NCBI RefSeq assembly: GCF_003259845.1
Contig: NZ_QLMJ01000001.1
Coordinates: 558,001-622,000, forward strand
Reading direction: 5' to 3'
Length of the DNA stretch: 64,000 nucleotides
DNA from: Actinoplanes lutulentus
Lineage (GTDB): Bacteria; Actinomycetota; Actinomycetes; Mycobacteriales; Micromonosporaceae
Part shown: positions 22,052-32,968 of the stretch, piece by piece
Layout: the number at the start of each line of letters is the position of its first letter
How positions within the stretch are numbered: position 1 is the first letter of the stretch
The notes under the pieces: model-generated
Told to the model about the DNA's origin: nothing
The model's input: only the letters and a program-made list of their open reading frames with translations
Database searches by the model: none
Program-made: the position numbers and the translations under genes

Positions 22052-25000
22052 ATGACGCTCACCGATGTCCTCGTCAGGGCCGCCACGGACGCACCCGACG
22101 AGGGCGTGGTGCACGTGGGGGCAACCGAGCATTTCGTGACTTATCGCGATCTGCTGGCCGATGCCCTGCACGTCGCCGGTGGGCTGCGGGACGCCGGGCT
22201 GACCACGGGCGATCCGCTCCTGGTGGTGGCGCCGGAGAGCCACGAGTTTCTGCCGCTGTTCTGGGGGGCGGTGCTGGCGGGGGTCGTACCCGTGCCGTTG
22301 GCGCCGGAAGCGGACCGCGTGGCCGCCGTCTGGCGTCACCTGGCGGAGCCGGCCGTGGCCGGCGACGACATCCTCCCGGGCGTCCCGTCTTTGAGTCTGT
22401 CGTCGTTGCGTGCTTCCGCGCCGCTGCCGGCGCCCGTCGCGGTCTCCCCCGACGACCTGGCGTTTCTGCAGTTCTCGTCGGGCAGCACCGGGACGCCCAA
22501 GGGTGTCGAGCTGACCCACCGCAACGTGGTGGCGAACCTGTCCCAGGCCACCCGGGCCTCCGGCGCCGGGCCGTCGGACGTGGTCGTGACCTGGATGCCG
22601 TACTTCCACGACATGGGCCTGATCGGCACCCACCTGACACCGGTCTTCGTCGGATGCCGGCAGGTACGGATCAGCCCCATGGCGTTCGCGAAACGGCCGC
22701 TGGAGTGGCTGACGGTCGCCGCCCGGCACCGGGCCACGATCCTGTCGGCGGCGAACTTCGCCCTGGCGCTGGTCCTGCGGCGGGTTCCGGACTCGGCTCT
22801 CGACGGGGTCGACCTGAGCAGCGTGCGCTTCGTGATGGTGGGCGCGGAGCCGATCTCCCCGGCGGTGTGGCGGGCGTTCGCCGCGAAGATGGCTCACGCC
22901 GGGCTGGCAGCGTCGGCGCTCGCTCCGGTTTACGGCCTGGCCGAGGCCACAGTGGCGGTCGCGTTCCCACCGATGGGCGAGGTGGCGGTGCCGGTGGCGG
23001 TGAGCCGGGCGGCGTTGTCCCGGGGCGTGGCTGTCGGTGTTTCTTCCTCGGGCGTCGAGTTCATGGACGTCGGTTACCCCATCCCCGAGTGCGCCGTCCG
23101 CATCGTCGACGAGTCGGGATCGGCTCTCGAGGACGGCCTGGTGGGAGAGGTACAGGTCAGCGGCCCGAACGTGATGCGCGGCTATCACCGCGACCCGGCA
23201 GCCACCGCCGCTGCTTTCGACGGACGATGGCTGCGAACCGGCGACGTCGGCTTCCTGCGCGACGGCCGCCTGGTGATCAGCGGCCGGCAGAAGGACGTGC
23301 TGTTCGTCCACGGCCGCAACTTCCACGCGTCCGACCTGGAAGAGGTAGCGGCCGCGACCCCGGGCCTCGGCACCGGCCCGGTAGCCGTCGTAGGCACCAC
23401 CGATCCGATCAGCGGCCGCGAGGTGGTCGCGGTGTTCGTCGCGGCACCGGCCGTCCGGGCCGATCCCGCGGTGGCCGAACTGGTCCGGCGCCGGGTGGCG
23501 GAGGCACTGGGTTACGACGAGGTCCGCGTCGAGGTGGTCCCCCGAGGCACCTTCACCCGGACAACAAGCGGAAAGCTACGCCGCATCCCGCTACGGGACC
23601 GCCTCCTGACCGCCCTGTCCACGCCCCCGGCCGACCCGGTTGATCCGGCCGGTCCGGCGGGGCCGGCGGGGCCGGCGGGGCCGGCTAGTGCTCGCGGTCG
23701 TGCGGAGCGCTCTTTCACGGCCGCGAGCGCAAGCCGGGCTTCGGGGTCGCGGGGTTGGGGGTCGCGGGCTGAGGTGGAGCGGCTGGTCCGGGCGGTGTGG
23801 GCGCGGGTGCTGCGGGTCGAGCCGGAAACGATCGGGCCGGACGACCGGTTCCTGGCGATCGGTGGGTCATCGCTGGCGGCCATGGAGGTGCTCGCCGAAT
23901 TGGAGGACGCGATCGGCCGGAACCTCGACCCGGCGCTGCTCCGCGACGGCGCGACCATCCCCGCGCTGACCGACCTCCTGATGTCGGTGCCGGCGGCAGT
24001 CTCCCCGGAACAGCCCATCGCAGCCGGCGGCGGTGACCTGGCGGTGATCGGGATGGCGTGCCGGTTTCCCGGGGCGGACACGCCTGAGCAGTTCTGGGAC
24101 AACCTGGTCAACGGCCGGGATGCGGTCACCCGGGCCGACCGCTGGGACGGGCACGGCGCGTTCCTCGACGATCCGGCGCTGTTCGACGCCGGCTACTTCG
24201 GGATCGGCGACACCGAGGCCCGCTATCTCGACCCGCACGCCCGGATCTTCCTGGAGCTGGCCCACGAAGCTCTGGAACGCGCTGGTTACGCCGGCCCCCG
24301 CCGCCACGCCCGCCGGATCGGCGTCTTCGCGGCCGTGGGCGAGTCCGAATATCCGGAACTCGTCCGCGACGCGATGCCGGCATCACCGCCCGCCGGGGCT
24401 CACGCTCTCACCGGCAGCCTTCGTAATCTCACCGCCGCCCGGGTAGCCCACCTGCTCGACCTGCACGGGCCGGCGCTCGCGATCGACACCGCCTGCTCGT
24501 CGGCACTGGTAGCGCTGCACCTCGCACGGCTCAGCCTGACCGCCGGCGACTGCGACATCGCGCTCGTCGGCGGGGTCAACCTGAACCTGCTCGACACCGG
24601 TCATTCCCTGCTCGCGCAGGCGCAGGCACTCTCACCGACCGGGCGGTGCCGGGCGTTCGCCGCCGACGCGGACGGGTTCGTGCCGGGCGAGGGCGGTGCG
24701 GTGATCGTGCTGACGCGCCTCGGCAGCGCAGCCGACGACCGGGTGCTCGCGCTGGTCAAGGGTACGGCCGTGAACAACGACGGCCGCTCCCTCAGCCTGA
24801 TGGCCCCGAACCCGATGCGGCAGCGCGAGGCGGTCGCCCAGCCGTACCGGCAGATGGGTATTGATCCCGACCAGGTCACCTATATCGAGGCGCACGGCAC
24901 CGGCACCCCGGTAGGTGACCCGATCGAGGCGCGATCGCTGGCTTACGCGTTCCCGCCGAGGCCTGGCGGCGAGCCACGCCTGATCGGCTCGGTGAAGACC

Positions 25001-32968: not shown

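Follow-up and report, generated by a model that had tools for sequence, protein, structure and literature searches.

Gene and domain order

The stretch of DNA analysed here is a 64,000-nucleotide segment of the Actinoplanes lutulentus contig NZ_QLMJ01000001.1 (positions 558,001 to 622,000), which we call the window. A single open reading frame (ORF) at 22052-32968 on the forward strand encodes a protein of 3,638 aa, with no internal stops and no N. A Pfam search of the product, which the original prediction for this DNA had proposed, returned two AMP-binding domains, a ketosynthase (KS), a truncated Acyl_transf_1 match, a ketoreductase (KR), three PP-binding domains and two Condensation domains. 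KS, KR and acyl carrier protein (ACP) domains are thus joined with condensation (C), adenylation (A) and peptidyl carrier protein (PCP) domains in one chain, as in a type I hybrid of polyketide synthase (PKS) and non-ribosomal peptide synthetase (NRPS). Mapping gives the order FAAL-ACP-KS-AT(dead)-KR-ACP-C-A-PCP-C-terminal release domain, in which FAAL stands for fatty acyl-AMP ligase and AT for acyltransferase.

The FAAL-type domain (22052..23617, aa 1-522; all domains are on the forward strand) is of the AMP-binding type. Over the first ~520 aa its best NCBIfam matches are PRK07768, PRK09192 (fatty acyl-AMP ligase), PRK05850 and MbtM, all of them under the whole-protein cut-offs; these matches mix PRK07768, which bears a CoA-ligase name, with several FAAL models. 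Of 70 rows of the family alignment described below, only some allow the checked FAAL residues to be read, and 3 of 8 positions vary. ACP1 follows (23765..24001, aa 572-650; PP-binding, Ser607), and then the KS (24029..25237, aa 660-1062) with Cys815, His948 and His987. The AT is a relic (25514..26203, aa 1155-1384). Its Pfam match covers only positions 2-115 of the 319 in the Acyl_transf_1 profile, the active-site motif at aa 1244 reads GHGAG instead of GHSxG with Gly1246 (25787-25789) in the place of the Ser, and the His-bearing region is deleted; the AT had rightly been called dead from the first reading.

Downstream of the relic lie the KR (26699..27247, aa 1550-1732; Lys1664, Ser1687, Tyr1702 and Asn1706), ACP2 (27551..27748, aa 1834-1899; PP-binding, Ser1863), the first condensation domain, C1 (27758..28942, aa 1903-2297; HHxxxDG at 2025), the A domain (28985..30442, aa 2312-2797; AlphaFold pLDDT 90.9) and the PCP (30449..30655, aa 2800-2868; PP-binding, Ser2832). 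A second condensation domain, C2 (30797..31801, aa 2916-3250; HHxxxDG at 3041), is placed between the PCP and the release domain, which resembles both TAD and acyl-ACP reductase (AAR) and ends the protein (31802..32965, aa 3251-3638). Its Cys3582 (32795-32797) aligns with Cys2238 of the carmabin TAD.

A widespread and conserved family

The 121 loci L039-L159 yielded 116 ORFs of at least 1,200 aa, to which the window was added. We dropped repeats, recognised by having 60 residues of the terminal domain in common, as well as loci with no terminal domain in their longest ORF and L159, which has another architecture. This left 101 rows including the window, 90 of which span KS to ACP2. In 70 of the 101 distinct members, FAAL-ACP-KS-ACP-C-A-PCP-C-terminal domain is encoded in one open frame, and the remaining 31 have the same order minus the 5' domains. 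The open frame reaches the edge of the fetched stretch in 28 of the 31 (including L050, where no domains were recognised in that part); in L057, L076 and L110 it opens inside the stretch, so that a broken frame or a split gene is possible in a few draft copies. Due to this colinearity of its relatives, a frameshift, an assembly join or a chance ORF in the window is unlikely.

Among 300 Micromonosporaceae genomes, 47 match the terminal domain (the window's included), and stretches from 40 of them were taken. Three matches are weak (38% identity, in other ORFs), which leaves 44 of 300. Single in-frame TGA codons in the aligned stretch of the terminal-domain matches in G119, G234 and G184 were left unmended. 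For Streptomyces, 69 of 392 genomes match at 1e-30, or 67 when two with only 38-39% identity are set aside; the genus was recognised from the G406 and G460 loci, whose tested 200-base words all recur in the named Streptomyces loci L072 and L098. An even sample of the phylum gave 27 matches in 396 genomes; strong matches are confined to four genomes, the window's own and three of Streptomyces. The remaining 23 (L163-L185) are weak, lie in frames of 359-436 aa in genomes of 0.8-2.4 Mb, and are possibly stand-alone acyl-ACP reductases. Scanning named genomes turned up 127 relatives, of which 80 were retained; they come from Actinoplanes, Couchioplanes, Streptomyces, Micromonospora, Nonomuraea, Microtetraspora, Herbidospora, Kineococcus, Ornithinimicrobium and Nocardioidaceae. 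Among the named genomes, those of Actinoplanes are closest to the window, and three genomes of its genus contain sequence identical to named Actinoplanes loci. One copy is carried by a 0.93-Mb plasmid of Streptomyces fungicidicus, as a lone gene amid unrelated genes.

The original prediction had called the domain order unusual, without recognising it from any described system, and had suggested a search for it in Micromonosporaceae. We found no description of the synthase family in open-licence PMC papers, a search that could miss an account in a subscription journal. The order is not a one-off, though. The Micromonosporaceae search recovered the family, and relatives there, in Streptomyces and in named actinobacteria rule out an architecture unique to this genome. 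The novelty lies in a single-gene line with PCP-C-TAD, in how widely this is spread and in its recurrent AT losses; every domain type was already known.

Outside the FAAL and the AT, the catalytic residues are kept almost without exception. The KS Cys-His-His triad, the KR Lys-Ser-Tyr-Asn set and the Ser of ACP1 are present in 90/90 members, the Ser of ACP2 in 96/96 and that of the PCP in 101/101. In C1, 99 of 100 members have the second His, Asp and Gly (one row is cut) and 98 have the first His. The HHxxxDG motif of C2 and the equivalent of Cys3582 in the release domain occur in all 101. The A-domain pocket, with code positions anchored on motif numbering, reads DARSAVLINK in the window and most commonly DARSVVLINK in the family; all 114 readable ORFs (repeats included; five with one position unread) have DARS[V/I]VL[I/V]N or a form one step away. 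Because the pocket is near-invariant, one substrate throughout the family is suggested, and pocket and catalytic residues together suggest one conserved product. The family-conserved Arg of the pocket, which we take to be position 239, hints weakly at an acidic side chain on the amino acid. The A-domain structures nearest by fold have varied substrates.

The flanking ORFs of the 101 loci were clustered with a simple ORF caller, upstream sequence being short or absent at many loci. No conserved neighbour emerged (18 of 101 loci fall in the largest cluster and 13 in the second largest), and a linked operon was rejected on these grounds. The absence of flanking phosphopantetheinyl transferase (PPTase) and transport genes that had been noted at first is borne out by a scan of ten neighbouring ORFs: no PPTase, transporter or AT gene was found among them, and four matched nothing. 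Two ACPS-family matches elsewhere in the genome are PPTase candidates. Directly upstream and divergent (17206-21850, reverse strand) are genes for a PIG-L deacetylase, a GT2 glycosyltransferase and an ATP-grasp protein, which a few close relatives retain in part (clusters of 2, 5 and 4 loci, window included). The ORF directly downstream (32949-34550, reverse strand; DUF4041, MUG113, T5orf172) overlaps the 3' end of the synthase gene by 20 bases. The 18-locus cluster encodes an ABC-transporter ATPase, judging by the one member scanned. Its gene is ~2 kb or less away, divergently upstream, in L128, L130, L131, L133, L134, L139, L140, L141 and L142, which form one Actinoplanes clade; in the window a member of the cluster is ~24 kb away. 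A clade-specific transporter partner is possible in that clade.

Terminal release and the second condensation domain

The last ~390 aa, which had been labelled AAR in the original prediction, do have a fold in common with AAR, yet the carmabin TAD is by far the closer match, so that the predicted domain order stands but for this label. The terminal domain of the carmabin, vatiamide and hectoramide systems is called TAD in PDB titles and AMT in the hectoramide paper; the carmabin TAD alone was compared. In both sequence and fold the release domain is nearer to it than to other solved families, and the two share the catalytic Cys and an NAD-type Asp. AAR is not the best match by profile: TAD and PigE both outscore it, and it reaches only E 1.6e-5. 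The cyanobacterial AAR (6jzu) differs in the alignment in its nucleotide-binding residue and in its active-site surroundings. Because the release domain is TAD-like, release as an aldehyde is no more likely than release as a primary amide, and the amide is somewhat favoured.

The AAR label of the original prediction would imply a different outcome, in which the terminal domain would reduce the thioester to an aldehyde, like AAR and the thioester-reductase domain of PigE, and the product would be an N-(3-hydroxyacyl) amino aldehyde. We regard this as rather unlikely, since the domain is much closer to TAD than to AAR or the PigE reductase and its DDSxPHC region matches TAD, where the AAR alignment differs. 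Free-standing relatives of the terminal domain also exist. On a Pantoea stewartii plasmid (L186, 7054-23908) the cluster that encodes one also has two adenylation-domain genes and genes for a luciferase-like monooxygenase and a KS-like protein; on a plasmid of Streptomyces sp. NBC_00470 (L187, 11656-15860) a weak one is found near ACP and KS genes.

C2 is the main unexplained part of the synthase, as it is invariant yet has no obvious acceptor. A known C subtype was sought for it and none could be assigned. C2 and the terminal domain might be the remnant of a second module, with C2 condensing the chain with an amine or with an aminoacyl carrier from another protein, so that more than one building block would follow the acyl chain. 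The full condensation fold of C2 and its strictly kept motif fit this view, as does the separate locus L159, where C-A-PCP precedes a domain with 38% identity to the terminal domain. It is nevertheless unlikely in our judgement, because the family has no conserved partner gene next to it. L159 itself (6173-10678, forward strand), from another Micromonosporaceae genome, encodes an NRPS module of C-A-PCP with the terminal region after the PCP, and adjoins a second NRPS gene.

Acyltransferase loss and the proposed product

The Acyl_transf_1 match extends over profile positions ~1-267 in four intact orthologues and over ~1-115 in the window and L144; it is a sub-threshold trace in L122 and is missing among the matches listed for L147 and L157. 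Among the members spanning KS to ACP2, 63 of 90 have both the AT Ser and His and 27 have neither, without intermediates. All 27 AT-less members come from Micromonosporaceae genomes or from named Micromonospora or Actinoplanes. Because AT-intact orthologues occur in Streptomyces and in other Actinoplanes, the dead AT is read as a lineage-specific loss. In a quick tree (LG+G4; KS, A and terminal domains, with the AT left out) the AT label changes at least six times, always in Micromonosporaceae, or five times when only strongly supported branches are counted. Such counts carry no direction, but re-creating an orthologous AT is far less likely than losing one. The AT thus appears to have been lost several times from a cis-AT ancestor. 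This sets the synthase apart from trans-AT PKSs: it shares with them a KS module without a working AT of its own, but no AT gene was found beside the window's synthase among the ten neighbouring ORFs scanned.

Since the KS Cys-His-His and KR Lys-Ser-Tyr-Asn residues are intact in all 27 AT-less members, the simplest view is that these enzymes go on elongating and are loaded in trans. The ratio of non-synonymous to synonymous substitution rates (dN/dS) of the KS is low, ~0.15-0.25, in nine AT-less pairs. (In this comparison the KR dN of 0.478 for L137-L156 is probably a region-picking error, and L129-L130 is without an AT or KR value.) On our best reading, the AT-less enzymes still elongate and receive malonyl in trans, most likely from FabD. 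The window's genome has Acyl_transf_1 matches in a 1,596-aa ORF, in the relic and in one discrete 338-aa frame. The last is on another contig, in a fab-type run of ORFs with genes read as KAS III, ACP and KAS II, and we read it as FabD. The AT-less G137 has two AT matches, in frames of 1,568 and 345 aa, and G140 also two, one in a frame of 1,585 aa. The early suggestion that the enzyme may be the whole pathway is therefore borne out in that no conserved gene accompanies it, and falls short in that malonyl loading must come from elsewhere in the genome.

Alternatively, the AT-less members may have stopped elongating, the KS merely passing the acyl chain on, with a plain N-acyl amino acid derivative as the product. 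The loss of the AT residues in 27 of 90, an AT gene being absent from the ten neighbouring ORFs scanned, and the lack of a conserved neighbour would fit; we nonetheless consider it improbable, because a KR should decay without a 3-keto substrate and both KR and KS are intact in all 90 members, the 27 included. Least probable of all is that the AT of some other PKS encoded in the genome donates the malonyl: the 1,596-aa ORF of the window's genome has a normal-length AT match (G000 C5:25882-26727) and ORFs of 1,568-1,602 aa with an AT match occur in G137, G140, G143 and G234 of the same genus, but G000 and G137 have just one discrete AT match each, of 338 and 345 aa, and trans donation by a module AT is rarer than by a discrete one.

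Lipopeptide lines of the daptomycin type are encoded by multi-gene clusters and incorporate many amino acids. In such FAAL-initiated synthetases the FAAL loads an ACP and a C domain carries out lipoinitiation (PMC9113097). The present synthase resembles them in both respects and differs in that its one gene provides for a single KS/KR extension and has a single A domain. The route first sketched for it (activation of a fatty acid, addition of one ketide, reduction to a 3-hydroxyacyl chain and coupling of one amino acid) is supported by the domain anatomy. The FAAL would activate a free fatty acid as acyl-AMP and load it onto ACP1, and the KS would add one malonyl unit on ACP2, which would be charged in trans where the AT is lost (in this genome and other Micromonosporaceae), most likely by FabD of fatty acid synthesis. 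The KR would then reduce the extended chain to the 3-hydroxyacyl form, and C1 would join this to the amino acid held on the PCP. Finally, the TAD-like terminal domain would take the chain from the PCP, using NAD(H) and its conserved Cys, and release it, more probably as a primary amide than as an aldehyde. We put a probability of roughly 55% on this scheme as a whole, i.e. one small lipo-amino-acid made by a single-gene PKS-NRPS, with trans-charged ACP2 and TAD-like release.

Several points weigh against it. The activity of the TAD has been deduced from the structure of its products, and according to PMC10949194 its mechanism had not been studied. The TAD of HcaD and VatR is described there as part of a multi-gene peptide line and as directly downstream of a PCP, whereas here the whole line is one gene and a C domain intervenes. 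The dN/dS of the AT part in nine AT-less pairs (~0.32-0.63) overlaps with that in eight readable AT-intact pairs (~0.26-0.46), and between the window and L122 the value for the relic equals that for the KR (0.31). The relic is thus not clearly relaxed and may have kept a structural role. Several other AT-less genomes also carry many ATs (among the matches listed), so other donors are possible there.

A broader view, which we offer tentatively, is that this actinobacterial one-gene line has a 3-hydroxyacyl amino acid amide as its one conserved product, an aminolipid that would act in or on the cell and not as an antibiotic, and that five to six lineages have gone from cis to trans AT, borrowing malonyl from primary fatty acid synthesis. 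If the scheme is true, about 1 in 6 of the sampled Streptomyces and Micromonosporaceae genomes (by terminal domain) would carry an apparently undescribed one-gene lipid route, and a TAD-type release domain would be placed in actinomycetes. Orthologues with and without a working AT would also allow a side-by-side test of how a module accepts malonyl in trans, which bears on polyketide engineering.
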